24,347 nucleotides of DNA. Source: a virus. Shown here one piece after another: positions 3,401 through 17,620 of the stretch. Under the pieces are notes generated by a model that ran no database searches, was not told the origin of the DNA, and saw nothing but the letters and a program-made list of their open reading frames with translations. The first letter of the stretch is position 1, and every line of letters starts with the position of its first letter. The stretch covers positions 1-24,347 of the IMG/VR virus record IMGVR_UViG_3300042434_001157. One strand, given 5' to 3'. Position numbers and translations under genes: made by a program.

Positions 3401-3504
3401 GCATATTGTATGGTCAGATCTATATTCAGCCAACACGTACCGCTGAAATGATTGTATTGGACTTCAATGTACTCCCTTCGGGTGCCGTTTTTCCGAGCGC
3501 ATAA
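481..3504 (+). CDS. Contractile tail sheath protein (T4 gp18-like), oversized
   Basis: A 1007-residue tail sheath subunit, the protein that polymerises around the tail tube and contracts during infection. The N-terminus (residues about 10-100, with SPGVFTREVD and a GG.V..PFPKGP stretch) matches the start of phage sheath proteins. The conserved C-terminal sheath domain covers about residues 840-1003, with YEGHVNPIAAFPGQGVVAWG and LDRVNVRRLL followed by IAxxxxxFVFE-type helices. T4 gp18 has 659 residues, so roughly 350 extra residues sit in the middle, rich in Ser, Thr, Gly, Ala and Tyr, probably as surface domains. AGGAG at 466-470 supports the start. Arginine codons are mostly CGT/CGC, as expected for a highly expressed virion gene. 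A strong terminator follows. Confidence 0.95.
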   Translation: MAIEQNGTYSPSERIVSPGVFTREVDQSFLAQGVAAIGGVVVAPFPKGPGFSPTVINSEGDLSTIFGDADGTLYGPITAQQYLRQQGQVTVVRVGGLSGYNQQKALFVTATPGQYGRFQENSVVSGSLLDATLYPNSAANSVFKITGSVSVTFDSGFYEDETIEVGTLQVATFASSSTNLYGAVTASDGCLDYFFATASATNTSFTISGDAPWNGSRLSSLTIRRIPGACDFELEIEGVLTGSYGAFNPNAFTPGVGLTEDGCGSSSYATGSDSVLLAVLANTAYDRSQNLYGFSGSLLSTSSVVSVTADFSLALNTIYTDGSGNTASSSYGTYQFSLDEESNKYITNVFGTDPKAGYVPVAAGQKIEAAYTYKNFKHRTKTIINQMLASGSWKIAIFSRDAMDFEDGIEPADGTSAFDLTNAYTPFIRSQLIAAFTGSGVSSSAAYDLFKVHTLTDGTAANTAYKLEISNVKSPGSVPGTSYGSFTLAVRSYSDTDLKPVYLERFDNLNLDVNSANYVARRIGDTYNYIDFNGKILEFGDFPQKSKYVRVEMATAPWPVDAIPYGFGPYATPVGGDYARLGKIPAMQYCSASAYLLQPGRYASGVVFQPAPAQADADLAALYPNGSSVGPELDNKQYFAPVPQGSAVGANVAFDLETYCGVSPLYVASQENTNVKKRRFVLGFQGGFDGQSPSVPVLIGNDILPTNQQGLDCSTSTSRGTYAYRQSIAALSNADEFDFNLITVPGINYEDHAYVATSIVDMCERRGDAFYIMDIAPNQTAGATAIQNVVDLAGQFDTNYAATYYPWVKVTETNSNKIMNVPPSVVMMGVYAANDKVAAEWFAPAGLNRGGIPTAVSVADRLTHTERDTLYEGHVNPIAAFPGQGVVAWGQKTLQRNPSALDRVNVRRLLIALKKFIASSSRFLVFEQNVATTRQRFLNIVNPYLESVQQRSGVYAFKVVMDDSNNTPDLVDRGILYGQIYIQPTRTAEMIVLDFNVLPSGAVFPSA

Positions 3505-3555: not shown

Positions 3556-3593
3556 ATATAGCAAGATTTCATCATTTTGCCTACCGGTTCATA

Positions 3594-3607
3594 TATTTAT
3601 ATTTATA
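3594..3607 (+). promoter_or_regulatory. Two overlapping TATTTATA motifs, candidate promoter
   Basis: TATTTATA occurs at 3594-3601 and again at 3600-3607, directly before the ATG at 3607 of the homing endonuclease. This is the octamer seen upstream of several other + strand genes. If it acts as a -10 box, the transcript would be almost leaderless. Confidence 0.4.
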
Positions 3608-4404
3608 TGAAAACAAATTATGGAAACCCAATGTCAATAAATAAAATTTGCGAATGGACCGGTAAATCTTTTACTGTTGATTGGAAGCACAGAAATAAAA
3701 GATTCATAGATACAAAAGCAATGTATGCTTGGAGAAAATCGCAAAATCACGAAATTGTAAATTGCTTAAATTGCAATAAACCGTTTGACAGATATAAAAG
3801 AATACTACACCCAAGATCTGGAAAATTGCAGCAATATTGCTCAAATGAATGTAACAGAAGTTCAAAAGAAAAGAGAGAAAAACTTAAAATTTGGATAAAT
3901 GACAACAATCCTATGAAAGATCCAATCTCGGTTGAGAAAATATCAAAAACCAAACTAGAAAAATACGGAAATTATAAATACAACAACCCAGAAAAAGCTG
4001 CAAATACTTGTATGAAAAAATACGGAACCGCGTGCTATTTTGATAGCCCTTCTGCTATATTATCAAACGGAAAACGCATATCAAAGTTTCAAAAACAAAC
4101 GTATGATCTTGTTTTATTAAAATATCCAGATGCAGTTCTTGAAAAATATCTAAAAGACGTTCATTGTTCTGTGGACATTTATATACCTTCGATCAAAAAA
4201 GTAATTGAGTGCTATGGGGATTATTGGCATTGCAATCCTAAAAAATACAAATCAGATTATTATAATAAATCTTTGCGCATGACAGCAAAAGAAAAATGGG
4301 ACAAAGATGCCATTAAAACAAATAAGTTAATGTCGGTCGGTTACGATGTCGAGATAGTTTGGGAAAACTCAAAGAAAAAACTTGTGCATTCAACAAAACC
4401 GTGA
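3607..4404 (+). CDS. Homing endonuclease, EDxHD / Vsr-like family
   Basis: A 265-residue probable free-standing homing endonuclease, a selfish gene that cuts alleles lacking it. Residues 15-35 look like a degenerate first zinc finger, followed by a C-x2-C...C-x3-C finger (C53, C56, C78, C82). Two KYG-type repeats (about residues 99-155) resemble DNA-binding NUMOD-like units. The nuclease domain has D190 in VDIYIP and E201/H208 in IECYGDYWH, matching the Vsr-like EDxHD fold. The usual helix Glu before D190 appears to be Gln (Q162), so activity is in doubt. I chose ATG 3607 because it puts the first Cys at residue 15, as in the larger relative at 6834-8363. ATG 3631, with GGAA upstream, is the alternative; a TTG at 3577 is less likely. 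Confidence 0.82.
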   Translation: MKTNYGNPMSINKICEWTGKSFTVDWKHRNKRFIDTKAMYAWRKSQNHEIVNCLNCNKPFDRYKRILHPRSGKLQQYCSNECNRSSKEKREKLKIWINDNNPMKDPISVEKISKTKLEKYGNYKYNNPEKAANTCMKKYGTACYFDSPSAILSNGKRISKFQKQTYDLVLLKYPDAVLEKYLKDVHCSVDIYIPSIKKVIECYGDYWHCNPKKYKSDYYNKSLRMTAKEKWDKDAIKTNKLMSVGYDVEIVWENSKKKLVHSTKP

Positions 4405-4412
4405 TATTTATA
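4405..4412 (+). promoter_or_regulatory. TATTTATA motif 4 nt before the HAD gene
   Basis: TATTTATA follows directly on the stop codon of the homing endonuclease and lies exactly 4 nt before ATG 4417. The same 4-nt spacing is seen at 17613-17620 and 24199-24206. Confidence 0.4.
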
Positions 4413-4416
4413 AAAT

Positions 4417-4980
4417 ATGCATATACTCCTAAAAAATCTATTGAAAGAAGTAGAAGAAAAGTCTCCACTTAAATATCAAATGTATGTGGATATGGACGGA
4501 GTTCTTGTAAACCTTGATAAAGGATTCAAGGCAGTTTCTGGCGGATTATCTCCTCAAGACTATGAAGCAAAAAATGGCAAAAACACTTTTTGGAAAGTAG
4601 TAAATAAAAATCCTAATTTCTGGCTTGACCTAGAACCATTGCCAGACGCTAAAGTTCTTTGGGATTATATAAAAGATAGATTCAAAGATCCACCCGCTGT
4701 TGTACTGAGTGCAGGCATCGGCACAAAAATAAAAGAGCAGAAAACTGCATGGATACGCAAGCATATAGACCCAAGTGTTCAAGTTATTATTGCTTCGTCC
4801 GGCGTATCAAAGCCACAATATATCATTGATAGAGCGGATGTCAGACTTACTCATATACTACTTGATGATACAGACAAGAATATAACTGCTTGGGAAAATT
4901 CCGGTGAAAATAGAATTGCTATTTTACATAAAGATGCGGCGAGCAGCATAAATAAGATTAAACAGATTGTGTCTGTATGA
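4417..4980 (+). CDS. HAD-superfamily phosphatase, 5'(3')-deoxyribonucleotidase-like
   Basis: A 187-residue HAD-fold hydrolase, likely a soluble nucleotide phosphatase. Motif I is DMDGVL (nucleophile D25, acid/base D27), motif II is the Ser of VVLSAG (about residue 98), and motif IV is LLDDTDKN near residues 153-160, followed by the W-x2-SGE stretch typical of phage and bacterial 5'-nucleotidases. All expected catalytic acids are present. The first 15 residues (MHILLKNLLKEVEEK) form an extra amphipathic helix, loosely like the N-terminal motif of the proteins at 9.1-13.1 kb. The stop overlaps the next start as ATGA (4977-4980), so translation is probably coupled. The natural substrate cannot be read from the sequence. 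Confidence 0.8.
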   Translation: MHILLKNLLKEVEEKSPLKYQMYVDMDGVLVNLDKGFKAVSGGLSPQDYEAKNGKNTFWKVVNKNPNFWLDLEPLPDAKVLWDYIKDRFKDPPAVVLSAGIGTKIKEQKTAWIRKHIDPSVQVIIASSGVSKPQYIIDRADVRLTHILLDDTDKNITAWENSGENRIAILHKDAASSINKIKQIVSV

Positions 4981-5225
4981 ATCACGTTTCGCTAAAATCT
5001 TTGCTGCTAAAAGAACAATTTCATGTATCCGACATGGTTATGCTTGAAAAGGCGTGCAAGGCTTTTGCAGACGTATTAATAAAAAACAATATTGTAGCAC
5101 ATCAACATAAAGACCTTACAGCAGCAGATACTCCTATATCTCAGTATTCAGAAGATATAGCAGAAGTTGTTCGCAATGAAGTAATCAAATGGATGGATGT
5201 AGCAAACAGACGAGGTGGAAGATGA
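4977..5225 (+). CDS. Small unknown protein in HAD/nucleotidyltransferase operon
   Basis: An 82-residue protein that I do not recognise. It begins with a short hydrophobic-basic segment (SLKSLLLKE) and is otherwise mostly helical, with acidic and hydrophobic residues alternating. No catalytic motif, membrane segment or signal peptide is visible. It overlaps the upstream HAD gene by ATGA and the downstream nucleotidyltransferase by ATGA (5222-5225), so the three genes are almost certainly translated together. It may be a partner or adaptor of the nucleotidyltransferase; that is inference from coupling only. Confidence 0.7.
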   Translation: MNHVSLKSLLLKEQFHVSDMVMLEKACKAFADVLIKNNIVAHQHKDLTAADTPISQYSEDIAEVVRNEVIKWMDVANRRGGR

Positions 5226-6130
5226 ATTATCCTTTATACAACGACAAACTTGCTCCTATATGGAACATCAATGAAGATGGTGCGAGACTTGATGACGAAG
5301 TAAGAAAATCGCTCATCAAGATCGCGATGGATTTTGTGCAGGACTTAAAAAAGAACCAAGATATAAACATCAAGACAGAAGACATACTTCTTATTGGTTC
5401 TATTACCAATTATAACTGGACGCCATATTCAGATATTGATCTACATATATCAACTGATTTTTCCAAACTTGATATGAGCAAAGAAGACGCACAGGCGATG
5501 TTTGATGCGATTAAAACTGGTTGGAATAGCAAGCACGACATTGTGATGAAAAACTTTGATGTTGAGTTATATGTTGAAGATATAGGGGCAGAACAGGTAT
5601 CTGCATCAAAGTATAGTGTTCTACGAAACGAATGGATAAAAGAACCAAAGAAAGAAAGTCCAAACTTCAACAAGTCACTTATAAAAAAGAAGTATAAAGA
5701 GTACTCAAAGAAGATAGACGACTTGATGGATGCAGACAGCGAAAAGCCGCTAAAAGATTTACTTGACAAGATATACAAGTTTCGTCAAGCAGGATTAGAC
5801 AAGGGCGGCGAACTAAGTGAAGAAAATATTGTATTTAAGATACTAAGAGCAAAAGGTAAGTTAGATAAACTAAAAGACACTATATCGGCGATTTACGACG
5901 ATAAGATGAGTGTCGATGAAATCGCCATGAACAATAGTTATTATGAGAAGGATGTTCAAGACGCGGCAGATGATATATATGCGATTGCAAAAGCGTTAAA
6001 AGTATATCCAGATATTGAACCATATATCAAAAAGATATCATTAAAATACAAGAAGTATTCGGACGATGTGCATATAGACATCGCAAGGGCATTTTCAAAG
6101 CTTAGAAAACAACAAATAAAAACATCTTGA
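5222..6130 (+). CDS. Minimal nucleotidyltransferase-fold protein
   Basis: A 302-residue protein with a pol-beta-type nucleotidyltransferase core: G59-S60 followed by D71 and D73 in SDIDLH, with a third acid likely E115 in FDVELYV. This is the GS...DxD signature of enzymes that transfer a nucleotide to protein, RNA or a small molecule. Residues about 140-300 are helical, Lys-rich and of unknown role. From memory, similar proteins occur in other aquatic T4-like phages without a proven function. The start at 5222 is chosen for the GAGG at 5212-5215 and the ATGA overlap with the upstream gene; an upstream in-frame start at 5189 would lie deep inside that gene. The stop overlaps the promoter of the next gene. 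Confidence 0.82.
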   Translation: MNYPLYNDKLAPIWNINEDGARLDDEVRKSLIKIAMDFVQDLKKNQDINIKTEDILLIGSITNYNWTPYSDIDLHISTDFSKLDMSKEDAQAMFDAIKTGWNSKHDIVMKNFDVELYVEDIGAEQVSASKYSVLRNEWIKEPKKESPNFNKSLIKKKYKEYSKKIDDLMDADSEKPLKDLLDKIYKFRQAGLDKGGELSEENIVFKILRAKGKLDKLKDTISAIYDDKMSVDEIAMNNSYYEKDVQDAADDIYAIAKALKVYPDIEPYIKKISLKYKKYSDDVHIDIARAFSKLRKQQIKTS

Positions 6131-6160: not shown

Positions 6161-6850
6161 ATGCTAAAGAATATCAAGTTTGCCCGGTTTGGTGGGCTTA
6201 GTTCAGTCAATCAAAAGGGATATGATTCGAACTGTGATGGCTATCATTCTCCTCCCGCCAAGCGTGGCTTTTATGCGTTTCTTTGGCCGTATTATGAGTT
6301 CTTTCTTCTCAGCGGTGGATTATGGACAAACTATCCTTGGTCAATAGGCACCAAGTTCATTTACTTAAAAGACGCCAAGGGTAATATCATTGACGAAAAT
6401 CATCCTGATCATGAATACTTTTCCAGCACAGGAAAGTATTGGAGCATTCCCACCAAAGAATGGTATTTTCATCATAAGAAACATCCTGAATATGAAGACC
6501 CCGAATATGATGCTAAGTTGGAGGCACATTGTATTGATTGGGAAACAAATCACGGAGATAAGCCCAAGTGGGTGTTGGCTCAAAAGCCTTCGCCCAGAAT
6601 CTTTGAGTACAAAGGAAATATCTGGCATCATTTGACCTGCTATCTCGGACCTTCTGGTGCACTGAAGCAGAAAGGTGGTTGGACTCTTTCGCCATTTGAC
6701 GAATACGCAAAAGCATTACAAAAAAACATGCACGCTGGTCGCAGGACACAGTGCGAATACAATTCCAACAAAGGACTACCGAAGTCCAACAAAAATCCTT
6801 ATGTGGGAATATCCAAAGATCATCTGGAAGTTTTTATTGAGAAGTTGTAG
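6161..6850 (+). CDS. Conserved-looking phage protein of unknown function
   Basis: A 229-residue protein without a named family. It is unusually rich in aromatics and His: an N-terminal FARFGGLSS segment, a PPAKRGFYAFLWPYYEFFLL segment around residues 32-51, and many Trp, Tyr and His residues in the middle (for example WYFHHKKHPEYEDPEY and KGNIWHHLTCYL). The hydrophobic patch near residue 45 is too broken by charges and prolines to be a clear membrane span. I recall similar FGGLSS/RGFYAF proteins in other phages, without a known role. It starts at the predicted transcription start of its own promoter. Its last 17 nt overlap, tail to tail, the homing endonuclease on the other strand. It may be an independently expressed accessory gene. 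Confidence 0.75.
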   Translation: MLKNIKFARFGGLSSVNQKGYDSNCDGYHSPPAKRGFYAFLWPYYEFFLLSGGLWTNYPWSIGTKFIYLKDAKGNIIDENHPDHEYFSSTGKYWSIPTKEWYFHHKKHPEYEDPEYDAKLEAHCIDWETNHGDKPKWVLAQKPSPRIFEYKGNIWHHLTCYLGPSGALKQKGGWTLSPFDEYAKALQKNMHAGRRTQCEYNSNKGLPKSNKNPYVGISKDHLEVFIEKL

Positions 6851-8363
6851 AGCTTCTCCATATCCATTTTGTATGACCGCAATCCCATATACGGTCAAAT
6901 CCGTTCAGTTTCATATTTTCCCATTCAGATAAGTTGGGATCAAATGTTTTTAACTTTTTTGCCAGTTTAGATTTTTGGAACATCTGTCGGTTGAATACTG
7001 TACTAAAGTCGGGAGATACATAATGATAACCTTGTGCTGTATTTCCTTCAAAGGTCATTCCTAGCTTAGAATACAAGTCTCCAGAGAACAATCTGCGGTC
7101 AGAGTAGCTTACTACGCTCTTTGGCTTATAATCCAATAGGAATATACTAAACAACTTTGTTGCTCCACCGTGCACACGAGTATTCAACGCATTGCAGAAC
7201 CTTGATATTTCCCATTCAACTTTTCGGTCAAATCTACTTCTACAAAACGTCATTATGCTGACCAAGGAGTTTTTATAGTATAAGCCATATGCGACAGATG
7301 ATTTGTCCTCACCTTGCATATGACACTTGTTCAAGAACTCATTCTTTTCTTTGGTGTCTACTTTTCGTATTTCGCATTCTCGTCCGTGGATCTTGGCAAC
7401 GTGCCCGCCAACATACTGACGTATGATTGACTTTACAATATTCTGCTTATGCTTCCATTCGCTTTCAAGTATATGAATGAGGTGTATATTTTTCTCGGCA
7501 CACTTCTCAGTCTTTTCCAGATGATAGTTTTTTGACATTCTGGGATGGCTGGCTCTGTGCCAATACAACCCGTTATATTCTATAGCGAACGAAAGATCGG
7601 GGATGTAAAAATCAAGCTCCTTGCCATCCAACACAACTCTATTATTTCGTAGTATAGTTTTACCCTTTACTTCAGACACCAAGAACTCTTGCAAACCAGT
7701 TTCTGCGGTTTCTTTCTTTTCAGGATGGCATAGTTCACAGAACACATCTGTTGGCACATATACTGTAGACTCGAATCCATTATTACATTTTTTACAATTA
7801 AACTTGTATCTATGCGAGAAATGATAGCCCGCATAGTCCTCTTGTTTGCATAACCACTTTACATTTTGCGAATTAAACAGAGTTTTTAGTTTTTCATAAT
7901 GGTTCTCTTGTTTGAGTTTACTTCGTTTTTGTATAACATCTCTAGATTTGCCGGGATTGTCCACACCGTACTTTTCAATCCAAGTTTCCATTATCCGCTG
8001 TCTTACAGGACTTTTTGACGACAATACATTTTCTACACCATAGTTTTGTACATTGGTATATTTGGCTTTATCAAGTATAGCTTTTGATTGCAATGCGTGT
8101 TCTACACCATATTTGGTCATCATAGAGTTCTTGAAATTATTTACAACTTCAGAAGTCTTCATAGGATGATCCGTGCCGTACTTTTTTAGTGAGGTTTCTA
8201 CCTGCGACGCTCGCATTTTTGCTAACACTTCTGGGTCTTTGTTAGAACAAGATTTACAGCAATACTTCTGCTTGTTTCGTTTCTGCCATTTCACTCTGAA
8301 ATCTGTATTGCAAGTTTTACATTTTAGCTCTACAAAGTCTGGGTTTTTCTTGGGTCTGGCCAT
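6834..8363 (-). CDS. Large homing endonuclease, EDxHD type with KYG repeats and C-terminal domain
   Basis: A 509-residue selfish endonuclease on the strand opposite to all neighbours. Domains in order: a zinc finger (C15, C18, C36, C39); four KYG/NYG repeats at about residues 61, 84, 107 and 131, likely DNA-binding; a second zinc finger (C190, C193, C209, C212); a Vsr-like nuclease core with E226, D251 in LDFYIP, and E262/H269 in IEYNGLYWH; and a C-terminal domain (about 355-505) of the type found in Hef-like phage homing endonucleases, with VVSYSDRRLFSGDLYSKLGM. All expected catalytic residues are visible. It is related in architecture to the smaller enzyme at 3607-4404. It sits between the unknown gene at 6161 and the tail tube gene. 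Confidence 0.88.
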   Translation of the reverse strand: MARPKKNPDFVELKCKTCNTDFRVKWQKRNKQKYCCKSCSNKDPEVLAKMRASQVETSLKKYGTDHPMKTSEVVNNFKNSMMTKYGVEHALQSKAILDKAKYTNVQNYGVENVLSSKSPVRQRIMETWIEKYGVDNPGKSRDVIQKRSKLKQENHYEKLKTLFNSQNVKWLCKQEDYAGYHFSHRYKFNCKKCNNGFESTVYVPTDVFCELCHPEKKETAETGLQEFLVSEVKGKTILRNNRVVLDGKELDFYIPDLSFAIEYNGLYWHRASHPRMSKNYHLEKTEKCAEKNIHLIHILESEWKHKQNIVKSIIRQYVGGHVAKIHGRECEIRKVDTKEKNEFLNKCHMQGEDKSSVAYGLYYKNSLVSIMTFCRSRFDRKVEWEISRFCNALNTRVHGGATKLFSIFLLDYKPKSVVSYSDRRLFSGDLYSKLGMTFEGNTAQGYHYVSPDFSTVFNRQMFQKSKLAKKLKTFDPNLSEWENMKLNGFDRIWDCGHTKWIWRSSTTSQ

Positions 8364-8492: not shown

Positions 8493-8981
8493 ATGGCAGA
8501 GCTACTAGATCAAAATCAAATATTCTTTACGGCCTTCGAGCCCAAGGTACAAAACCGTTTCATTATGAACATCGACGGCATTCCTGCATACCTAATCAAA
8601 GCTACAGGTCGTCCAAGCATACAGAACAATTCAATTACTCTAGATCATATCAATTTGAAACGTAAACTCAAAGGAAAGAGTGAATGGCAAGATCTTTCTA
8701 TTACATTATATGATCCAATCGTGCCATCTGGCGCACAGGCTGTGATGGAATGGGTTCGCCTTGCTCACGAATCTGTTACTGGTCGTAACGGATATGCTGA
8801 TATGTACAAGAAGGATGTCCAGATTCAAGTTCTTGGTCCTGTTGGCGACATTGTTGAGAAGTGGGACTTGAAAGGTGCATTTCCTAGCTCGGTAAATTTC
8901 CAAAGCATGGACTGGGCAAATGCCGAAGCAATGACAATCGAAGTTACACTGACGATGGATTACTGCATCCTACAGTTCTAA
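8493..8981 (+). CDS. Tail tube protein (T4 gp19-like)
   Basis: A 162-residue major tail tube subunit, which stacks in hexameric rings inside the sheath to form the DNA channel. Length (T4 gp19 has 163 residues) and sequence fit: an FEPKVQNRFIMNIDGIPAYLIKATGRPSI start, a central LSITLYDPIVPSGAQAVMEWVR region and a C-terminal WDLKGAFPSSVNF...EAMTIEVTLTMDYCILQF. In T4 the gene directly follows the sheath gene; here almost 5 kb of other genes intervene. All arginine codons checked are CGT or CGC, as in the sheath, which suggests selection for high expression. Upstream AGAAAG is a weak ribosome binding site. A terminator follows. Confidence 0.95.
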   Translation: MAELLDQNQIFFTAFEPKVQNRFIMNIDGIPAYLIKATGRPSIQNNSITLDHINLKRKLKGKSEWQDLSITLYDPIVPSGAQAVMEWVRLAHESVTGRNGYADMYKKDVQIQVLGPVGDIVEKWDLKGAFPSSVNFQSMDWANAEAMTIEVTLTMDYCILQF

Positions 8982-9005
8982 TATTATTATAGTGTTCTTA
9001 TACAG

Positions 9006-9036
9006 AACCCTCACCATAAAAAGTGGGGGTTTTTTA
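9006..9036 (+). terminator. Intrinsic terminator after tail tube gene
   Basis: A 9-bp stem, AACCCTCAC (9006-9014) with GTGGGGGTT (9023-9031; one T-G pair), an 8-nt loop, and a T-run to 9036. It separates the tube gene from the cassette that begins at 9154. Confidence 0.9.
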
Positions 9037-9129: not shown

Positions 9130-9137
9130 TATTTATA
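9130..9137 (+). promoter_or_regulatory. TATTTATA motif upstream of cassette
   Basis: TATTTATA lies 16 nt before ATG 9154, downstream of the sigma70-like promoter at 9044-9072. The cassette may thus have two promoters, one for the host polymerase and one for a later phase. Confidence 0.4.
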
Positions 9138-9153
9138 TATACCTAAAAAAATA

Positions 9154-9384
9154 ATGACTAAAGCAGAACTAAGAAAAATAATAGTTGAGGCTGTTAAAAA
9201 GGCAAAAGCCAAGAACACTCGCACTGCTGCGTCATATATAACTTCACCAACAGAAACTAATCCAACATTGTATATTAATATAACTGTGTCTGGTTCTGAT
9301 ATGGATGAAACGGAAGATATGCGTGAAAAAATACTAAAAACGCTACAACAAGAGTTTAACATAAAACCAACTAAACAGGATTAA
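9154..9384 (+). CDS. Small protein with N-terminal LRKIIVEAV targeting-like motif
   Basis: A 76-residue protein and the first gene of the five-gene cassette. Residues 3-16 (KAELRKIIVEAVKK) form a basic amphipathic helix that recurs at the start of the next two proteins and inside the two after them. It contains IVE before A13, which fits the (L/I)xE cleavage rule of T4-type prohead proteases. The rest (about 25-76) looks like a small alpha/beta domain, with a beta stretch TLYINITVSGSDM and a C-terminal helix. No family is recognised. There is no Shine-Dalgarno site. A capsid-targeted internal protein is inferred, not shown. Confidence 0.75.
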   Translation: MTKAELRKIIVEAVKKAKAKNTRTAASYITSPTETNPTLYINITVSGSDMDETEDMREKILKTLQQEFNIKPTKQD

Positions 9385-9388
9385 TATT

Positions 9389-9760
9389 ATGAATAAATCA
9401 GAACTTAAAAAAATTATACGTGAAGTAGTTGAAGAAGTCATGAAAGATGATTTTGCTCCACTTGGTGTAGCACAAGAATGGAGACTAGATGAAAAAGCTC
9501 CACCGGATTTTCCAAAGAAACTTCACGACAAACTGCTGAAACAGTATAAGGACGATGAAGGTAAAGCATATGCTACTATGTGGAAGATTTTTTATGCCAA
9601 GAAAGATGGTAATAAAAAGATAAATGAAATGTGGAAAGTATTTGAAGGTAAAGATCACGATGAAACTGATATGAATAATCCAGAAGAAAAACGTGAAGTT
9701 GAACTGGCCAAGAAAGCAAAAGCTGCTGCCGAAGAAATCTTAAAAATGCACGGAAAATAA
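9389..9760 (+). CDS. Cassette protein with targeting-like motif and PPDFPKKLHDKLLKQY module
   Basis: A 123-residue protein. Residues 2-18 (NKSELKKIIREVVEEVM) are the clearest copy of the cassette motif. LDE at 33-35 sits just before the start of a module (residues 37-85, APPDFPKKLHDKLLKQY...MWKIFYAKKDGNKKINEMWK) that I recall from marine phages as a small domain of unknown role. The C-terminus is a charged Ala/Lys/Glu helix. AGGA at 9377-9380 gives a proper ribosome binding site. The stop overlaps the next ATG by one base (TAATG). Function unknown; probably a virion-associated protein by context. Confidence 0.8.
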   Translation: MNKSELKKIIREVVEEVMKDDFAPLGVAQEWRLDEKAPPDFPKKLHDKLLKQYKDDEGKAYATMWKIFYAKKDGNKKINEMWKVFEGKDHDETDMNNPEEKREVELAKKAKAAAEEILKMHGK

Positions 9761-10323
9761 TGAATAAGTCTACACTCAAAGAAGTAATTCAAAATGTGGT
9801 TGCTCATAAACTGGCGGAAACCAACGGTGATGCGTCAAAGTATGGATATATTATTTCCGGAAAAGACACCAACGATCCGCACCTTCAGTTAATAGGTTAT
9901 GGTAATATGCCAAAAAGTTATTGGCAAAAAAAACTTGACGGATACGCCGACGAGTTGAAGAAGAGAATTAAAGCCGAAGACTGGAATGCGGCGGTATACT
10001 TTATGAAGCAAAGTAGTGTATTCAATCTCGCAGTCAATATGATGAACGAAATATACGAAAAAGATCTTAATGAACTTGATACCACACTCGATTCATCTGC
10101 TGCTGAAACTGGATTGACTGACGCGGATAAAAAAGAACTAGCGAATCTAAAAGCTCAGAGTGACAAACTAACTGCTAATATTAAAAAAATAGAAGGCGAT
10201 GTAGCCAAGCTACAACAAACCATCCAGCCAAAAATGCAAAGAGCGGAGCGCATGAAAGCAAAGCTGCAAAAGCAGCAGTCTGATAATATTCGCAAGCAAC
10301 AGGCAATACAAGACAGAGCTTGA
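9760..10323 (+). CDS. Cassette protein with targeting-like motif and C-terminal coiled coil
   Basis: A 187-residue protein. The N-terminus (NKSTLKEVIQNVVAHKLAE, residues 2-20) carries the cassette motif and ends in LAE before T21, a possible prohead-protease site. Residues 25-100 hold an unrecognised domain (KYGYIISGKDTNDPHLQLIGYGNMPKSYW at its start). Residues about 120-185 are Lys/Gln/Ala-rich with strong heptad character and form a long coiled coil, so it may oligomerise or act in a scaffold. Its start overlaps the upstream stop, so the two genes are coupled. The function is unknown; scaffold or core-like behaviour is inference. Confidence 0.78.
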   Translation: MNKSTLKEVIQNVVAHKLAETNGDASKYGYIISGKDTNDPHLQLIGYGNMPKSYWQKKLDGYADELKKRIKAEDWNAAVYFMKQSSVFNLAVNMMNEIYEKDLNELDTTLDSSAAETGLTDADKKELANLKAQSDKLTANIKKIEGDVAKLQQTIQPKMQRAERMKAKLQKQQSDNIRKQQAIQDRA

Positions 10324-10329
10324 TGTATT

Positions 10330-12120
10330 ATGGATAACATTGAGAAACAGCTTATTGAACTTGAAGAAAATCTTCACAAATGGTTCAAGGAGAAATGGGT
10401 AAGATTCGGACCAGATGGTAAGATACGTGGTCAATGTGCCAGAGAAAAATCAAGCGAAGGTAAGCCAAAATGTCGTCCACTAAAGTCTGCACAAGCGATG
10501 GGAAAGAAAGGTAGAGCAACTGCTGCACGCAGAAAGAGACGTGAAGACCCAAATCCAGATCGTAGCGGCAAAGCAAAAAATGTAAAAACCGAGGCTGATA
10601 AGATGGATGAACTAAAGTGCTGGAAGGGATACTCACGAGTACGTGGTGTGCCTGCTGGTGCACCAGGTAGTTGTAAAAAGAAAACAGAGGAATCTATAAC
10701 AGAATCTTCCAATTTCTCTATTGAACAACTGGCAACCATTAGCGATCAAGCACTGGATCAAGCATATGGATATGGTCGCAGCACGCCGGGTAATACTTTT
10801 GGTTGGCAGGCTAATATAATGTCTGCAATATATGCTAAAGAAGTAATTGATATGGGCGTTACTGATATTGAAAAAATTGCGAATGCTATTCACAAAGGAT
10901 GGAATGTTACAGCAAAAAAGTTTGTTGAAAATCCGGATCAATTTGATGATACTGAAAAACTACGCCAGTCTGGTAAACTGGATAGTAAGATACAACAAAG
11001 AAAAAAATTGATGAATATTGACTACAACCAACTAAGCGATGCCGAAAAAGAAAAGGATCGTGTTGTAGCTCGTGCTTTGTTGCAATCGTTGAAAAAAGAA
11101 TTGAGCGAATATATAACACCAGAAACCATACATAAACTTGCAGACGACTTAGGTATTGAGTGGGACAACGAGCCAAGCTTTCTTGAACTTACAAAAGAGT
11201 TGACGGGTAAAGAACACTTGGACGATTTAAATCAATCAGAGTTGATGAAAGTTAAAAACCATTTAGAAAAACAAAATATAGCAGAAACAGAGGAATTTAC
11301 TATGGATAATGTAAATGAAAATCATATGTGCCCTATTTGTGGTGGAGAACTTGTGTCAGAACTATTGATGAACGAAAAGAAAGATGCTTGTTATTATAAA
11401 GTTAAATCGCGCTATAAAGTGTGGCCAAGTGCATATGCTTCTGGTGCATTAGTAAAATGCCGTAAAAAAGGAGTAAAGAACTGGGGCAACAAATCAGAAG
11501 GCGTTGAAGAACTTGATGAAAAATGGAGCAAAAAATACAAGCGTAGCATTGATTGTAGTCATCCAAAAGGATTCAGTCAAAAAGCACATTGCCAAGGCAG
11601 AAAAAAGAACGAGGAAACCCTTATGAAAGAAGAACAACTGAAGAATATAATCAGAGAAATGGTAGAAGAGATGTATAACGAACAGAACCAGATGCAAGAT
11701 GAATGTTGGGAATGTTATGAAGCTGCCATGGAAGAAGGTACCAACGAGGCTTATGAAGAATGCTATCGCAAGACCAACTGGGAAATGGTTCCAGAAGGTG
11801 AAGAGCATACTTGCGAAGGCGATGAGTTTTATGAGATTTATGGAGATATTAACGCCGATGCTAAAGAAAACTTGACAGAAGCAGAATATCGTGGTCGCAA
11901 GGTAAAACTTGGAAAACCAATGAGGGGCGATGTAAAAAAGTTCAAAGTTTTTGTTCGTAATCCAACAACCGGTAAAGTAAAGAAGGTAAACTTCGGCGAT
12001 AAAAAGATGCGTATCAAGAAGAGTAATCCAAAGAGAAGGAAAAGTTTTAGAGCACGTCATAATTGCGCTAATCCAGGACCACGTACAAAAGCACGTTACT
12101 GGAGTTGCAGAAAGTGGTAA
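10330..12120 (+). CDS. Multi-module phage protein (polyprotein-like) with RyR-like domain
   Basis: A 596-residue chain of small units. (a) Residues 20-83, WVRFGPDGKIRGQCAR...RKRREDPNP, a basic Cys-containing module. (b) 93-117, LKCWKGYSRVRGVPAGAPGSCKK. (c) About 135-250, a RyR-like domain with IHKGWN and MNIDYNQLSDAEKEKDR. (d) 333-388, CPICGG then a Cys-containing VKSRYKVWPSAYASGALVKCRKK unit. (e) 404-426, RSIDCSHPKGFSQKAHCQGR. (f) M432-M448, an internal copy of the cassette motif. (g) 519-596, a basic RGRKVKLGKPMRGDVKKFKV...RARHNC...YWSCRKW unit. ITE, IAE, LDE and LTE (ending at 125, 319, 397, 517) fall at or near module edges, as expected for prohead-protease sites. I know these modules only as recurring phage units of unproven role. 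Mostly CGN arginine codons suggest high expression. Confidence 0.85.
   Translation: MDNIEKQLIELEENLHKWFKEKWVRFGPDGKIRGQCAREKSSEGKPKCRPLKSAQAMGKKGRATAARRKRREDPNPDRSGKAKNVKTEADKMDELKCWKGYSRVRGVPAGAPGSCKKKTEESITESSNFSIEQLATISDQALDQAYGYGRSTPGNTFGWQANIMSAIYAKEVIDMGVTDIEKIANAIHKGWNVTAKKFVENPDQFDDTEKLRQSGKLDSKIQQRKKLMNIDYNQLSDAEKEKDRVVARALLQSLKKELSEYITPETIHKLADDLGIEWDNEPSFLELTKELTGKEHLDDLNQSELMKVKNHLEKQNIAETEEFTMDNVNENHMCPICGGELVSELLMNEKKDACYYKVKSRYKVWPSAYASGALVKCRKKGVKNWGNKSEGVEELDEKWSKKYKRSIDCSHPKGFSQKAHCQGRKKNEETLMKEEQLKNIIREMVEEMYNEQNQMQDECWECYEAAMEEGTNEAYEECYRKTNWEMVPEGEEHTCEGDEFYEIYGDINADAKENLTEAEYRGRKVKLGKPMRGDVKKFKVFVRNPTTGKVKKVNFGDKKMRIKKSNPKRRKSFRARHNCANPGPRTKARYWSCRKW
11623..11673 (+). 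other. Internal copy of the targeting-like motif, with its own ATG
   Basis: Encodes MKEEQLKNIIREMVEEM (residues 432-448 of the 596-residue protein). It begins with Met, like the N-terminal copies, although it lies inside a longer reading frame. This looks like a former N-terminus, so the gene probably arose by fusion of formerly separate small genes. No clear Shine-Dalgarno site precedes the internal ATG. Confidence 0.55.
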
Positions 12121-12121
12121 T

Positions 12122-13078
12122 ATGGACAATTCACCAAAATATCTTTTTAAGATAGGTCAACTAGAAGCTAGTTTGACCGATCTTGCGTATGATGATATAT
12201 TCTTGAAAGAACGTGATCCAAAAAAGAGAGAACAATATATCAAGAACATAATAGATGCATCAACAAAAGCGGCAGAAGATTATGCCAGAAGAATTAACCT
12301 CAAAGAAAACACTATGAAAAAATCAGAACTAAAAGAACTACTAAAAGTAATCGCAGAAGAAGTGATTGCTGTTAAAAAGTCAAAACTAGATGAAACAAAA
12401 GGATTATCTGGTTTCAAGAAAGCAAAGGAGTCAACAGAGCATACCGAAAACGTAGCCGACTCAAAGTCGTTGACCACGACAGCAGAACCAAAAGAAAAGA
12501 AAGAAGGCAAAAAACTTCCTGTCGTTAAAAAGCCAGCTAACCCACAAAAAGTTGGTAGTCTAAAGGAAGAAATTCTTAAAATGATACGCGAAGAGATCGA
12601 TGAAATGGCTCGTGTAAAAGGCGCGGTTGGTAGTAAATTCAAGGTAGAAGATCCAAATTCTCCAACAGGTTGGGTTGTTAAAGGACACAAGACAATACCA
12701 GATGGTACACCAACAGAGGCTCCAAAAGGACCATATCAGCCAAAAGGCATGACTGGAATGGGAAGACCAAAAGCATCCGCAGGAGACGAAGGAGGTGAAG
12801 AAGGCGAAGATATTTCTTCAGTATCATCGTCCGTTCCATCAAAAATTTCCGTTACATTCGACGGCGATGATGTGGGAGAAATTGATATGAACAAAATAAA
12901 AGGACCACTTATGGCACACCTGAAAACTTTGTTGGGCGGAGAATTGTCTCTGTATAAAATAGATCCATCTCTACAAGCAAAGCTGGATGCATATAGCGAT
13001 ATGTATGTTGATGATAAGCTACCAGCAGGCGCAAAACTAACCCTGCAAGTAGTAGGAGACACCGTAAAAGCAGTATAA
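12122..13078 (+). CDS. Cassette protein with two internal targeting-like motifs
   Basis: A 318-residue protein of at least four parts. Residues 1-62 are an unrecognised helical unit. M65-V81 (MKKSELKELLKVIAEEV) is a cassette motif, followed by LDE at 89-91. Residues 95-146 are a low-complexity Lys/Glu/Thr/Pro linker. Residues 147-161 (LKEEILKMIREEIDE) are a second motif ending in IDE. Then come a short unit (KFKVEDPNSPTGWVVKGHKT), a Gly/Pro/Glu linker (about 195-235), and a C-terminal folded domain from about 240 (ISVTFDGDDVGEIDMNKIKG... to LTLQVVGDTVKAV). It starts one base after the upstream stop. The family is not recognised. By context it is a virion protein cut and packaged with its neighbours; that is inference. 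Confidence 0.78.
   Translation: MDNSPKYLFKIGQLEASLTDLAYDDIFLKERDPKKREQYIKNIIDASTKAAEDYARRINLKENTMKKSELKELLKVIAEEVIAVKKSKLDETKGLSGFKKAKESTEHTENVADSKSLTTTAEPKEKKEGKKLPVVKKPANPQKVGSLKEEILKMIREEIDEMARVKGAVGSKFKVEDPNSPTGWVVKGHKTIPDGTPTEAPKGPYQPKGMTGMGRPKASAGDEGGEEGEDISSVSSSVPSKISVTFDGDDVGEIDMNKIKGPLMAHLKTLLGGELSLYKIDPSLQAKLDAYSDMYVDDKLPAGAKLTLQVVGDTVKAV
12314..12364 (+). other. Internal targeting-like motif with ATG
   Basis: Encodes MKKSELKELLKVIAEEV at residues 65-81 of the 318-residue protein. It closely resembles the N-terminus of the protein at 9389 (MNKSELKKIIREVVEEV), which suggests a fused ancestral start. A second internal copy without Met lies at 12560-12604. Confidence 0.55.
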
Positions 13079-13106: not shown

Positions 13107-13137
13107 TTCTGCCGCTTTTTAGCGGCAGAAACTTTTT
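13107..13137 (+). terminator. Intrinsic terminator ending the 9.1-13.1 kb cassette
   Basis: A 10-bp perfect stem, TTCTGCCGCT (13107-13116) with AGCGGCAGAA (13121-13130), a TTTT loop and a T-run at 13133-13137. Together with the terminator at 9006-9036 it isolates the five-gene cassette as one transcription unit. Confidence 0.93.
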
Positions 13138-13195: not shown

Positions 13196-14032
13196 ATGGA
13201 TAATAATACAATACCTGTTACAAAGCAAAATACACAACCAGCAGCACCACAAGTAGCTCCACCTGTACAAGCAGAACAGAAGCTCGATTTTCCAACGGAA
13301 TATATTGATTTGCCATCGGAGGGTTATTTTTATCCGCTTTCTTCTCCACTTAGTTCTGGTCGTATACAATTGAAGTATATGACTGCTCGTGAAGAAGATA
13401 TTCTTACCAATCAAAATCTTATTAAGAAGGGTGTAGTATTGGATGAATTGTTAAAGGCATTGATTGTAACGCCAAACGTAAAACTGGATGATATTTTTGT
13501 AGGAGACAAAAATGCAATATTTATAGCTGCCCGAAGACTTGCATATGGTGATGAATATCCTGCAAAAATTACATGCCCAAAATGCGGCGAAGAAAATGAA
13601 GTAAAAATAAACTTGGGAGAACTAAAATCCAAGGAATTTGATTTTAGTAAATATACCAAAGGAGAAAATGCGTTTTCTTTTGAGCTACCCGTATCAAAAA
13701 AGACTGTAGTTTATAGACTACTAACGCATAAAGACGAAGGGGATATTGATGCAGAGCTAAAGGGTCTTGCAAAAATATCCAAAGCAAATACGCCAGAAAT
13801 GACCACAAGATTAAAGTATAGCATTGTATCCGTTGACGGAAATAGTGACAGAGGAGTGGTCAAAAAATTTGTGGATAATATGTTAGCTAAGGATAGTATG
13901 GCACTAAGAAGATATATTCGTGAAAACACACCGGATATGGATATGACGTTTGACTTTACTTGCAGTGCCTGTGGGCATAATGAAAGGATGGCAATGCCAC
14001 TGGGTGTTGACTTCTTTTGGCCTACCACCTGA
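13196..14032 (+). CDS. Baseplate protein, T4 gp26-like
   Basis: A 278-residue protein of the T4 baseplate family (gp26, baseplate hub). Residues 1-28 are a Pro/Gln/Ala-rich tail. The conserved core starts at about residue 31 (DFPTEYIDLPSEGYFYPLSSPLSSGRIQLKYMTAREEDIL), continues with VLDELLKALI and FIAARRLAYGDEYPAKITCPKCGEEN, and ends in CSACGHNE...GVDFFWPT. The two CxxC pairs (CPKC, CSAC) would bind zinc. T4 gp26 has 208 residues, so this form is longer, mainly at the N-terminus. It begins the tail/baseplate gene block after a strong terminator; no Shine-Dalgarno site is evident. Its 3' end overlaps the next gene in another frame. Confidence 0.85.
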   Translation: MDNNTIPVTKQNTQPAAPQVAPPVQAEQKLDFPTEYIDLPSEGYFYPLSSPLSSGRIQLKYMTAREEDILTNQNLIKKGVVLDELLKALIVTPNVKLDDIFVGDKNAIFIAARRLAYGDEYPAKITCPKCGEENEVKINLGELKSKEFDFSKYTKGENAFSFELPVSKKTVVYRLLTHKDEGDIDAELKGLAKISKANTPEMTTRLKYSIVSVDGNSDRGVVKKFVDNMLAKDSMALRRYIRENTPDMDMTFDFTCSACGHNERMAMPLGVDFFWPTT

Positions 14033-14269: not shown

Positions 14270-14277
14270 TATTTATA
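14270..14277 (+). promoter_or_regulatory. TATTTATA motif upstream of tape measure gene
   Basis: TATTTATA lies 20 nt before ATG 14298, in the 45-nt gap after the small overlapping gene. No Shine-Dalgarno site is visible between it and the ATG. Confidence 0.4.
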
Positions 14278-14297: not shown

Positions 14298-17200
14298 ATG
14301 GCCGATAATAAGAACGTATCAATGACACAGGAAGAATATGATCGCGCAAAAGCGGCATTGGATGTATATGAAAAAATATCAGAGGTTGTAGATAAAACTC
14401 GCGGTGTTTCAAAAAAAAGAGCAGAAGATTTGCAGAAAGAAATACAAGGTAACGAAACAGTATTAGATTTAACTAAAAAAATTGAAGAAAAAAAGCAAAA
14501 AATTACAAAGCTAGAAACTACGTATAGTGCTATACAAAAAAATGAATATCAGTTGCAAGCATCCAATGAAAGATCTGGTATAATCAAGGATCAAGTCAAA
14601 CTTCAACAAGAGCTACTTACCTGGAAAGAAAGACAATTTCAGCAAGAAATAGCTTCCGGAAAAATTACAGAAAGAACAGCAGCGGCCAGAAGACGAGAAA
14701 TACAAACAATTAAAGATACACTCGTCGCAAAGCAGCGAGAAGAAAAAATAGAAGATTATATACAATCTATACTAACGAAGAAAATTGCAGGCGGAAAGGC
14801 TGTGGCTGAAGATATAGCTCGCCGTCTAAAAACCGAAAAAGATGAACTTAAAACTTTAGAAGATCAACTAAAAATAACAAAAAACTTAATTAGAACGACT
14901 CAAGAAATTGAGCAGTTTGTCAGCGCGAACGCAGAAGAATATGGCAAAGTAAAAAAATTTTTATCGGATATTTCTAAAGGCGGAATGGCCGCTTGGTTGG
15001 CAATGTTAAACGCATCGTTGGCGAGATGGAAAGAACTTGATGTAGCTGCGTTTAATTTTAGACAAACTACTGGATTTTTGGTCAGTCAAACTAAAAATTT
15101 AGACAATGCAGTTAGACGAGTAAATGTGCAGATGGCAAATTTGGGCGTGGGATTGAAAGAATTGTATGAAATTGGACAGGCACTTACTGAAGAATTTCAA
15201 GTCATAGGACTTGTAACAGAAGAAGTAATTGCAAATACTGCAAAGGTCGCGGCGAATCTTGGACTTAATGTAAAAGATGCTGCAAAATTCAAGGGGTTGT
15301 TTGAATCTATTTCTCAATCTGTAGGAAGTTCTGGAGACTCGATGATAAAATCTGCTGTGGCTTTGGCTGAAATGGGCGGAGTAGCACCAAGAGCAGTATT
15401 GAATGATATGGCAAACGCATCAGAAGATACTCTTGCATTTCTTGCCAAGAGTCCTATGGCTCTTATACGTGCTACCGTAGAAGCAAGAAGATTGGGAACT
15501 ACGGTAAATTCGTTATCAAAATCTGCGAGAGGGTTTCTTAATTATCAAGATTCTATTACGAGCGAGCTTGAAGCTTCTGCATTAATTGGAAAATCGTTAA
15601 ATTTCCAAGAAGCCAGAGCAGCCGCATATGCCAGAGATGTAGTAAAGTCCAGAGAGCTTGCACTTAAGCAGATTGAAAAGGCAGGAGACTTTACAGGATT
15701 AAATGTATATCAACAAGAAGCACTTGCTAAAGCGGCAGGAATGACAACTGCCGAAATAATTAAGCAGCAAAATCAACAAAAACTTCTCGCGAAATTAGAA
15801 CAGACAAAACCAGAATTGTATAAAAAGTACATGGAAATGCAGCAAAAAATAAAGGAAAATGAAAAAGCTGCGGCGGCGGATCTGGAAAAACAAGCAGAAG
15901 AAATGGCAAAACAACAATTAATGCAAGGAGAGATTAATAAACTTACCAACGCATTTTCTGGAATTTGGACAGACATATCAGATTCTCTTCTTGCCATAGC
16001 AAATACAATAATGCCACCAATAATAATTGCTGCAAGATTACTCGGAGCAACGTTTAAAATTATTACGGCAATAATTCGTGGATTTTTATCTCCGTTTGAT
16101 AAATTTGTAAGTAAATTAAGATCTGGAGAAGAAGGCGGACTGACGTTGGAAAAAATAATGACAAAGATAGGAGAAGGGGTGGAAAAAATTATTCCTTATG
16201 CGGAAAAACTTGGAGAATTGGTTAGCTTGGTAGTAAGAGGATTTATGTTCTTGGGCATAATCTCTGGAAAATTATTCACGGAATTAAAAGTATTTAAAGA
16301 TATAGTTGGATATTTTTCTAATTTTGGTAGATCGGTACTCATGAATATTGGTTATATAAAAAATTTCGTTGATTACATAAAAAATTTAGGAAGTGCAGCG
16401 TCTATAGGTTTTGCTCGGATATTAAATGGGTTTGATAATATAAAAAGAGCAATTACATTTGTGAAATCTGGGCTTGATGTTGTACCTAAACTTTTTGGTG
16501 CAGTTGGTGGAATTGGTCAGCACCTAGGACCAGTGACAAAAGTGTTTGGAGTATTTGGAAAAATATTTGGTTCCGTAGGCAGATTTGTTGGATTATTCGC
16601 AAAAGCTATACCTGGCATAGGACAAGTTATAACTGCAATTCAAATATTGTGGGAGTTGGGAACAAGCTTGTTTAGTATATGGACCGACGATAATTTGAGT
16701 ATTGGTCAAAAAATAATTGCGTCTCTTAAAGCTGTGCCGGGTGCTATATTCGACGTAATAGTTTCTCCGCTTATAGATATTGGAGCGTGGATATTAAAAA
16801 TGTTTGGTGTAGATTTAACAGATGGTATGATTGATGGCTTTAAAGCAAGCGCAAAAAAAATATTTACATATCTCATGTTTCCATTTATTGGAGTTTATGA
16901 ATGGATTTCGGAAAAATTTTTGGGAAATTCTCCATCGGAGATAGGACTTGGAATAGTCGATGGAATAAAATCTATAGGAGGAATGTTATTAGATGCGTTG
17001 ATAGAACCATTTTCGAATGGATATAATTGGATTAAAAAGAAACTGATGGGGAAGTCCCCATCGCAAATAGGACTTGGAATAGTTGACGGTATAAAATCGG
17101 TCGGACGTATGGTGTTGGATGCACTTACTTCGCCATTTAAAGCTGTAGTAAATTTTATATCTAGGATATTTGGAGGAGACGGTTCTCTTGGCGATTCTAT

Positions 17201-17612
17201 CATAAATGGTATAAAGAATATTATGGGCGGAGTATTTGACTTGTTAATCTCACCGTTTAAAAAAGCATCAGAATTTATTACAAATATTCCCGTTATTGGT
17301 AAATTGTTTGGCGGAGGAGATGCCACGGCAGCAGTAAATACTGAAGCAACGGTTAATGTTGAAAAGCAAGTTGCGATGGCAGTCGAAGTTAAAAACCTCG
17401 ATGAGCTTAAAGAAACAATAAATAAACTTATTGAAGCAATATCAAAACTTGGAGGAACGGCGGGCGGAGCATCTCCGGTGGTTAATGTAAACAATAATCA
17501 AAACGCGATGATCGAAAAATTAGATGAACTTATTGGTCTACTAAAAGATGGCGCAATCGCGGTTAATATGGACGGAGCGTTAGTTTCTAGAACATTGGCC
17601 AAGACATCTTAA
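14298..17612 (+). CDS. Tail tape measure protein
   Basis: A 1104-residue protein that fits a tape measure, the protein that sets tail length and is ejected at infection. Residues 1-215 are a Lys/Glu-rich coiled coil. About 220-560 are helical (FRQTTGFLVSQTKNLDNAVRRVN... is typical). About 562-597 (SLLAIANTIMPPIIIAARLLGATFKIITAIIRGFL) and 640-660 are hydrophobic, probably membrane-interacting. Residues about 802-1010 contain repeats of 41-42 residues with NSPSEIGLGIVDGIKS and KSPSQIGLGIVDGIKS, the SPS.IG motif common in tape measures. The C-terminus has a short helix and a Gly-rich end. T4 gp29 has 590 residues, so scaling by length suggests a tail of about 165 nm. Arginine is mainly AGA. It lies between baseplate genes. 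Confidence 0.88.
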   Translation: MADNKNVSMTQEEYDRAKAALDVYEKISEVVDKTRGVSKKRAEDLQKEIQGNETVLDLTKKIEEKKQKITKLETTYSAIQKNEYQLQASNERSGIIKDQVKLQQELLTWKERQFQQEIASGKITERTAAARRREIQTIKDTLVAKQREEKIEDYIQSILTKKIAGGKAVAEDIARRLKTEKDELKTLEDQLKITKNLIRTTQEIEQFVSANAEEYGKVKKFLSDISKGGMAAWLAMLNASLARWKELDVAAFNFRQTTGFLVSQTKNLDNAVRRVNVQMANLGVGLKELYEIGQALTEEFQVIGLVTEEVIANTAKVAANLGLNVKDAAKFKGLFESISQSVGSSGDSMIKSAVALAEMGGVAPRAVLNDMANASEDTLAFLAKSPMALIRATVEARRLGTTVNSLSKSARGFLNYQDSITSELEASALIGKSLNFQEARAAAYARDVVKSRELALKQIEKAGDFTGLNVYQQEALAKAAGMTTAEIIKQQNQQKLLAKLEQTKPELYKKYMEMQQKIKENEKAAAADLEKQAEEMAKQQLMQGEINKLTNAFSGIWTDISDSLLAIANTIMPPIIIAARLLGATFKIITAIIRGFLSPFDKFVSKLRSGEEGGLTLEKIMTKIGEGVEKIIPYAEKLGELVSLVVRGFMFLGIISGKLFTELKVFKDIVGYFSNFGRSVLMNIGYIKNFVDYIKNLGSAASIGFARILNGFDNIKRAITFVKSGLDVVPKLFGAVGGIGQHLGPVTKVFGVFGKIFGSVGRFVGLFAKAIPGIGQVITAIQILWELGTSLFSIWTDDNLSIGQKIIASLKAVPGAIFDVIVSPLIDIGAWILKMFGVDLTDGMIDGFKASAKKIFTYLMFPFIGVYEWISEKFLGNSPSEIGLGIVDGIKSIGGMLLDALIEPFSNGYNWIKKKLMGKSPSQIGLGIVDGIKSVGRMVLDALTSPFKAVVNFISRIFGGDGSLGDSIINGIKNIMGGVFDLLISPFKKASEFITNIPVIGKLFGGGDATAAVNTEATVNVEKQVAMAVEVKNLDELKETINKLIEAISKLGGTAGGASPVVNVNNNQNAMIEKLDELIGLLKDGAIAVNMDGALVSRTLAKTS
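16701..17327 (+). repeat. Tandem 41-42-residue repeats in the tape measure gene
   Basis: About five degenerate units starting near residues 802, 843, 885, 927 and 968. Two neighbouring units share an identical 17-nt stretch, ATAGGACTTGGAATAGT, at 16941-16957 and 17067-17083, 126 nt (42 codons) apart. The period is in frame, so copy number changes would alter tail length by whole units. Confidence 0.75.
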
Positions 17613-17620
17613 TATTTATA
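17613..17620 (+). promoter_or_regulatory. TATTTATA motif 4 nt before a baseplate gene
   Basis: TATTTATA follows the tape measure stop codon directly and ends exactly 4 nt before ATG 17625. There is no Shine-Dalgarno site. The spacing is identical to that at 4405-4412 and 24199-24206. Confidence 0.4.

Follow-up and report, generated by a model that had tools for sequence, protein, structure and literature searches.

A short helical tag shared by unrelated genes of a T4-like phage: a candidate capsid-targeting propeptide

The window analyzed here, 24,347 nucleotides long, is the whole of IMG/VR record IMGVR_UViG_3300042434_001157 and represents a fragment of a T4-like myovirus. Between its tail tube and baseplate hub genes lies a cassette of five open reading frames (ORFs) with intergenic distances of -1 to +6 nt, whose products share a short amphipathic peptide, hereafter the tag (genes are cited by their first nucleotide). 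According to our analysis, the tag is quite probably a capsid-targeting propeptide, and the cargo behind it would be packed into the head, cut by a gp21-type protease and ejected. This reading draws on four observations: the sharing of the tag, the genes found around it, the protease of relatives, and sites that are position-specific and Glu-strict.

From the sequences we infer binding to the prohead core, actual cleavage, packaging and ejection, in the following order. An N-terminal amphipathic helix of about 12–20 residues (consensus MKKSELKxLIKEExxxxLxE) would dock unrelated proteins on the prohead scaffold core. The gp21-type (S77) protease would then cut after an (L/I)xE that lies either at the helix end or where the folded body begins, and the cargo, freed inside the head, would be ejected together with the DNA. 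The cassette would be a hypervariable cargo island; in it, 12122 would encode a fusion and 10330 a polyprotein made up of small basic modules, and the same protease would free both products.

The tag in the window and across genomes

The initial annotation had described five genes sharing an LKxxIRExVxE motif. All the peptides it quoted were found at their places and the five ORFs exist; the shared motif stands, but two of the genes are fusions with an internal tag. The tag is N-terminal in 9154, 9389 and 9760 (three of the five genes) and internal in 10330 and 12122 (two of the five; residues 65–81 and 147–163 in the latter). The copy at 11623 is likewise internal in the homologue at 50931 of G007, a 297-kb relative. 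Scored with a position-specific matrix whose training set came from the corresponding island in relatives, the copies reach, in order, 27.6, 40.3, 26.6, 28.7, 16.9, and 9.1 bits, whereas shuffling of the five proteins yields 0.06 segments of at least 8 bits per trial. The profile search that had been proposed found no other tested ORF of the window at 8 bits or more, and found tagged genes in the genomes of relatives. The training set of this matrix includes near-identical phages, and the independent tests on G007 and on the Flavobacterium phage immuto weigh more.

The bodies behind the tags are otherwise unrelated, as had been claimed: BLASTP among the five products returned the tags and weak extensions, and the best body alignment (9389 against 9760, E 4e-4) begins inside the tag. 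A recent duplication inside the window was rejected, since the tag DNA is just 50–73% identical between copies. Chance origin of the pattern was likewise rejected by the matrix tests on the window (shuffles) and on G007.

In G007, scanned with a matrix trained on the island tags of other phages, a score of at least 8 bits was reached at 13 of 374 N-termini against 9 of 5666 internal blocks, and the head-module genes outscored the rest of the genome (Mann–Whitney p = 1.7e-5). Two tagged genes (274387 and 274702) lie between portal and protease, another precedes the baseplate genes, and outlying ones are found at 95738, 233029, 248387 and in a tandem trio at 139632–140448. The trio (within L093 and L094) consists of overlapping genes with unrelated bodies, and the first 36 nt of its tags are the same even at synonymous sites, which points to recent copying of the tag alone. 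In immuto, a cultured and distant relative, the five top-scoring N-termini are 113144, 81481, 123311, 102836, and 102250; 123311 is placed between portal and protease, and 81481 immediately before the baseplate genes. A triplet (L/I)xE occurs within residues 5–22 in 8 of 11 head genes against 63 of 359 other genes of G007, and in 7 of 7 genes of the head block against 45 of 216 elsewhere in immuto. Separately, immuto (MW353176) genes 103762, 117587, and 118588 begin with a second peptide family, approximately MENFDLKKFLVENKLTxNSxxL, followed by an E-ending site and common to otherwise different proteins.

Prohead-core genes beside the gp21-type prohead protease of relatives carry the tag as well. 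In many contigs, tagged genes recur immediately downstream of gp21, in the interval from gp20 to gp21, or about 1 kb before gp17. Because the window is the entire record and holds no protease gene, the question of the protease was put to relatives. Peptidase_S77 was present in 8 of 8 large tagged contigs tested and in 4 of 16 contigs selected by tail tube, which are mostly fragments. Relatives and tagged contigs alike encode an S77 prohead protease that has the catalytic His and Ser and conserves the GEL(D/N)HP and SSRG motifs of T4 gp21. In G007, Mel-JY01, and immuto, the propeptide of the major capsid protein ends in LIDE↓A, LISE↓A, and IVSE↓A, the aligned T4 site being FLTE↓A (arrows mark known or predicted cuts). 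In contig L346, a variant tag, MKITKSHLRKIIKEEVSKVLSE, stands on the gene directly upstream of gp21 (2063–2410, minus strand), and the gene directly downstream carries MKKSELKSLIKE.

Two DNA-pattern scans of public viral contigs for MKKSEL[KR]xLI[KR]E gave at least 133 ORF families (80 + 53) that share this pattern on dissimilar bodies, the arrangement known from T4-type capsid-targeting sequences (CTSs); all counts from these scans refer to the matches listed. In the first scan, 60 of 127 tagged ORFs share a stretch with gp17, gp18, gp19, gp20, gp21 or gp23. The tagged bodies are mostly without relatives: Pfam over the 80 families gave 11 models with one member each, including GP88, LRR repeats and a weak Endonuc-MspI.

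Predicted cut sites and multi-module products

The triplet IxE at residues 10–12 is not independent evidence, because the scan pattern imposes it; residues 18–20 are left free. There, (L/I)xE was found in 28 of 80 and 29 of 53 families, against 2.6 and 1.2 in shuffles (57 in total, with about 4 expected). When L or I stands at residue 18, the ratio of Glu to Asp at residue 20 is 57:0, and otherwise 15:6 (p = 2e-4). Conservation of the tag falls to background past residue 20–21, and the peptide ends, as in T4-type CTSs, in a gp21-type (L/I)xE. Asp would be acceptable in a simple acidic helix; in T4, Asp at the P1 place blocks processing (PMC9026906). A distal site (about residue 20, or the body boundary) has better support than one within the helix, and (L/I)xE as the proposed cut site is well supported.

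Within the window, the placement of (L/I)xE had been described correctly, including the exception at 11623, where IRE lies within the tag and the next triplet, LTE, about 70 residues on. The sole triplet of 9154 is IVE at residues 10–12. The AlphaFold model of the 9389 product has a helix at residues 3–21, low confidence at 19–34 and a helical body at 43–86 (pLDDT about 80), and RLDE falls in its loose linker. In orthologues of 9760, the position of KLAE is occupied by KLSE, KLTE, KLNE or KLKE, and by RKMGE in one.

In the 10330 product, small basic modules appear to be strung together at predicted protease sites (residues 13, 94, 125, 260, 319, 349, 397, 443, 469, and 517, among others), and PHROGs 727, 3477, 38880, 23735, and 7595 match different segments of it. 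Its AlphaFold model is poor, with one confident helical domain at about 131–255 that is flanked by the predicted sites 125 and 260. Judged by their sequences, the 10330 and 12122 products are multi-module fusions. Boundary sites were counted for conserved cargo blocks across all loci of the comparison, where composition would give 2–4% per context, such probabilities being descriptive. The AEYxGxxV module has (L/I)xE before it in 20 of 20 distinct upstreams (9 of 9 dissimilar contexts), with seven different residues at the middle position of the site, and the KWSxKYKxSIDC module has LxE in 11 of 11 (6 of 6). For xKGLSG, (L/I)xE stands upstream in 18 of 19, and for PPxFP of the 9389 body, LxE lies two residues earlier in 8 of 8 distinct upstreams, P2 being free. 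Protease-type sites are thus kept at module boundaries while their neighbors change, save at the CWKGY module.

Modules of 10330 also exist as separate proteins. The AEYRG module stands alone behind a MKKSELK-type tag in G019 (IIGE↓AEYRG) and alone behind the T4-like MKKFKQYIDEG in phage C48C1 (ELTE↓AEYQG). In the non-T4-like phages Aegir and CRP-902, it is untagged and starts MAKYQGRTVKL or MATYKGKSVSL; these starts coincide with the predicted cut. A tagged 79-aa protein of L134 (3115–3351, minus strand) resembles the C-terminal part of the nucleotidyltransferase-like gene 5189–6130 of the window, and would therefore be another module alone behind the tag.

The comparison of 80 loci with a related tail tube gene indicates that the cassette looks like a hypervariable island of shuffled genes that more distant relatives lack. 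Closer relatives have a variable gene set between tube and hub, and most of these genes start MKKSELKxLI(K/R)E-like, whereas in more distant relatives (L047–L077) the hub directly follows the tube, with no island. Gene content, order and fusion state differ among relatives: in L039 the two halves of 12122 are separate genes, and the 10330 modules recur in differing combinations.

Alternative explanations

Overall, the capsid-targeting reading of the initial annotation gains support, at the level of sequence, from the tag on prohead-core genes near gp21, the S77 protease of the large tagged contigs, the Glu-strict sites and the module boundaries. Several points weigh against it. The 24-kb window, itself a fragment, has no gp21 protease gene, and the cassette sits in the tail gene block, not in the head block. 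Low tag scores are found for the major capsid protein, gp21 and some core genes, and 27 of the 133 families have no (L/I)xE in residues 13–40. Glu at every fourth residue is equally expected of an amphipathic helix, which explains part of the spacing. The boundary anchors were picked after the pattern had been seen, and the CWKGY module is preceded by (L/I/M)xE in just 2 of 15; since, in addition, the KKDACY module follows MNE or MSE, the boundary rule is not universal. Finally, with the tag matrix the propeptides of T4 IPI, IPII, and IPIII reach -15 to -10 bits, and no sequence similarity to them was found; homology is therefore not claimed.

It is possible, though unlikely, that only part of the set is cargo and that the tag marks prohead-core (scaffold-associated) proteins, which are digested and lost, as most of the T4 core is, and are not delivered. 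Tagged genes do occupy gp67/gp68-like and post-gp21 positions, and gp21 degrades the core proteins of T4 (PMC9026906). However, several tagged or LxE-led proteins are enzymes or folded modules, namely a nucleotidase (NT5C-like; 4417 in the window, 19047 in G007), a T4-type lysozyme (G007 283739, recognized by reading the sequence) and a nucleotidylyltransferase, and the gene content of the hypervariable island is unlike that of a structural core.

Slightly less probable still is a reading without proteolysis, in which the motif serves as an assembly helix (coiled coil) and fastens accessory proteins to the scaffold or to some component of the tail or baseplate; the (L/I)xE spacing would then be just the helix repeat. 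The place of the cassette between tube and hub genes, the tagged gene before the baseplate genes in G007 and immuto, and the suitability of L/I at 10, 14, and 18 and of E at 12, 16, and 20 for an amphipathic helix would all fit. Such a helix does not account for the Glu-only residue 20 when L/I is at 18 and the end of conservation after 20–21, for modules that lie far from any tag yet immediately follow (L/I)xE, or for tags on genes between portal and protease. We consider it very improbable that the tag is an ordinary targeting or folding peptide steering proteins to a host factor such as a chaperonin or the membrane: the tags are Lys-rich and helical, and the N-terminus of the T4 head protein directs proteins to GroEL (Snyder and Tarkowski, 2005, as cited in PMC10052503), but this leaves the Glu-strict (L/I)xE and the link to head genes and the S77 protease unexplained.

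Beyond the capsid-targeting reading itself, we regard as evenly balanced the broader proposal that aquatic T4-like phages use a portable head-loading code. In this proposal, a helix of 20 residues that ends in a protease site would be copied onto genes as they arrive, and entire islands of small proteins of unassigned role, in part as polyproteins, would be packed, cut apart within the capsid and injected. Recent copying of the tag is seen in the G007 trio.

Surroundings of the cassette and comparison with known systems

The features of the window are collected in Table 1. The 4417 product, with a Pfam NT5C match slightly below the cut-off, stays under 8 bits with the tag matrix, and its G007 homologue (19047) reads MHILLKNILKEA; this nucleotidase likely belongs to the tagged set, outside the region 9154–13078 of the initial annotation. 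Endonuclease-like genes at 3577–4404 (plus strand) and 6834–8363 (minus strand), with homing/HNH-type PHROGs and DUF7487, interrupt the tail block of the window.

Table 1. Features of the window; arrows mark predicted cuts.
Feature	Position	Strand	Remarks
Tail sheath gene	481–3504		
5'-Nucleotidase gene (NT5C-like)	4417–4980	+	Short-form N-terminal LLKE peptide; phrog_2643, E 1.5e-20
Small gene	4977–5225	+	N-terminal MNHVSLKSLLLKE; homologues MSNLKLKSILLKE and MNEIKLKSLLLKE
Tail tube gene	8493–8981		
Terminator-like hairpin between tail tube gene and cassette	9004–9033	+	
TATTTATA element, candidate late promoter of cassette	9130–9137	+	Consensus match only
Putative cargo gene 1	9154–9384	+	76 aa; tag MTKAELRKIIVEAVKK at 9154–9201
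Putative cargo gene 2	9389–9760	+	123 aa; tag 9389–9442, flexible linker, helical body
Predicted cut RLDE↓KAPP in putative cargo gene 2	9485–9493	+	Alignment A2
Putative cargo gene 3	9760–10323	+	187 aa; tag, then globular and coiled-coil body; alignment A3
Predicted cut KLAE↓TNGD in putative cargo gene 3	9811–9819	+	
Multi-module gene	10330–12120	+	596 aa; (L/I/M)xE sites between small, basic modules that contain Cys
Predicted cut ELEE↓NLHKWF	10360–10368	+	L/I-x-E kept in 9/9 variants before NLHKWF/WVRFGPDGKI module
Predicted cut ELDE↓KWSKKYKRSIDC	11512–11520	+	Boundary statistics
Internal tag MKEEQLKNIIREMVEEM in 10330 product	11623–11673	+	Residues 432–448; 28.7 bits
Predicted cut NLTE↓AEYRGRKVKL	11872–11880	+	Start of last module (phrog_7595)
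Fusion gene	12122–13078	+	318 aa; N-terminal module MDNSPKYLFK, then NLKE↓NT
Tag MKKSELKELLKVIAEEV in 12122 product	12314–12364	+	
Predicted cut KLDE↓TKGLSG in 12122 product	12386–12394	+	
Second tag-like helix in 12122 product	12560–12610	+	
Terminator-like hairpin 3' of cassette	13107–13130	+	10 pairs, T tail
Baseplate hub gene	13196–14032		
Tape measure gene	14298–17612		

Megablast of the window against phage records gave no match. The cassette bodies gave no convincing family in Pfam, PADLOC and PDB searches, the weak PADLOC matches of 9760 being rejected as coiled-coil cross-matches, and the cassette genes had no Pfam, PHROG or PDB match to tail sheath, tube or baseplate proteins. Foldseek returned no match for the 9389 model and none below E 0.001 for the 10330 model. 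A tblastn search of the 20-residue tag, too short a query, against cultured phages gave no match even at E 10, and no description of the motif was found in open-licence papers.

The initial annotation had placed the whole set under one promoter and one terminator. The TATTTATA element and the two hairpins of Table 1, as consensus matches only, are consistent with the cassette being one transcription unit. TATAAATA/TATTTATA occurs 13 times in the window against 3.0 expected, and 7 of 11 TATTTATA copies in the window and 28 of 49 in G007 (sense strand) lie at most 45 nt upstream of gene starts. On the coding strand, TATTTATA is the reverse complement of the T4 late-promoter consensus. It adjoins many gene starts upstream in the window and its relatives (e.g., 441–448, 4405–4412, 9130–9137, 14270–14277, and 17613–17620), and since its spacing to the start codon is sometimes just 4 nt, it may act either as a promoter or in translation, as a signal.

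Most small genes of environmental phages have no assigned role. If the capsid-targeting reading is true, the tag would explain the role of a large set of such genes and place hundreds of families in the virion straight from sequence. They would also be assigned to the first minutes of infection, the time at which anti-defence and take-over proteins work, and the polyprotein reading would add a route for tailed phages to deliver several peptides per gene. In phages other than T4, the tag with its cut site could also be used as a handle for loading cargo, and the idea is directly testable, as the cultured phage immuto carries the tag.

In T4, CTSs are 10–19 residues long, processing takes place at residues 8 and 10, and a CTS alone packages a foreign protein (PMC9026906). 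The CTSs of IPI, IPII, IPIII, and Alt are likewise short N-terminal peptides on unrelated bodies that end in (L/I)xE (IAE at residues 8–10 in IPII and IPIII; P1 at 19 in IPI), and T4 shares with the tagged phages an S77 prohead protease in the same phage and a fast-changing cargo set. Unlike the T4 CTS, the tag is a longer Lys/Glu-rich helix that is also present on prohead-core genes, and its cargo lies in a multi-gene island in the tail block and includes multi-module fusions with internal sites. By this analogy, the tag would work like the T4 CTS and is not detectably homologous to it.

The leaders of Kyanoviridae and pelagiphages are T4-like (MKKFKQYIDEG, MKKFSEIIEAR), whereas the tag described here is MKKSELK-like; the same cargo families nevertheless stand behind T4-like leaders (AEYxGKKV in C48C1, nucleotidylyltransferase in Melnitz, and nucleotidase in HTVC008M). 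Mass spectrometry has detected cytidylyl- and NMN-adenylyltransferases in virions of cyanophages (PMC3037559; PMC10665884), which by analogy lends indirect support to delivery. The cyanophage "structural protein" T4-GC 119/phrog_727 has the N-terminal basic, KKDACYxKVKSRY and CWKGY modules in common with 10330, but has no MKKSELK tag and does not keep (L/I)xE before its KKDACY (QMEG). In SPN3US/phiKZ-type phages, the propeptides of delivered proteins are cut after a three-residue motif ending in Glu, with multiple sites per propeptide (PMC10052503); these propeptides, in contrast, are mostly long (111–254 residues), and no short tag is shared by many small proteins. New here is a tag of another kind, which has spread over very many unrelated families and is also used on prohead-core genes; the hypervariable island and the predicted cleavable multi-module products are new as well.

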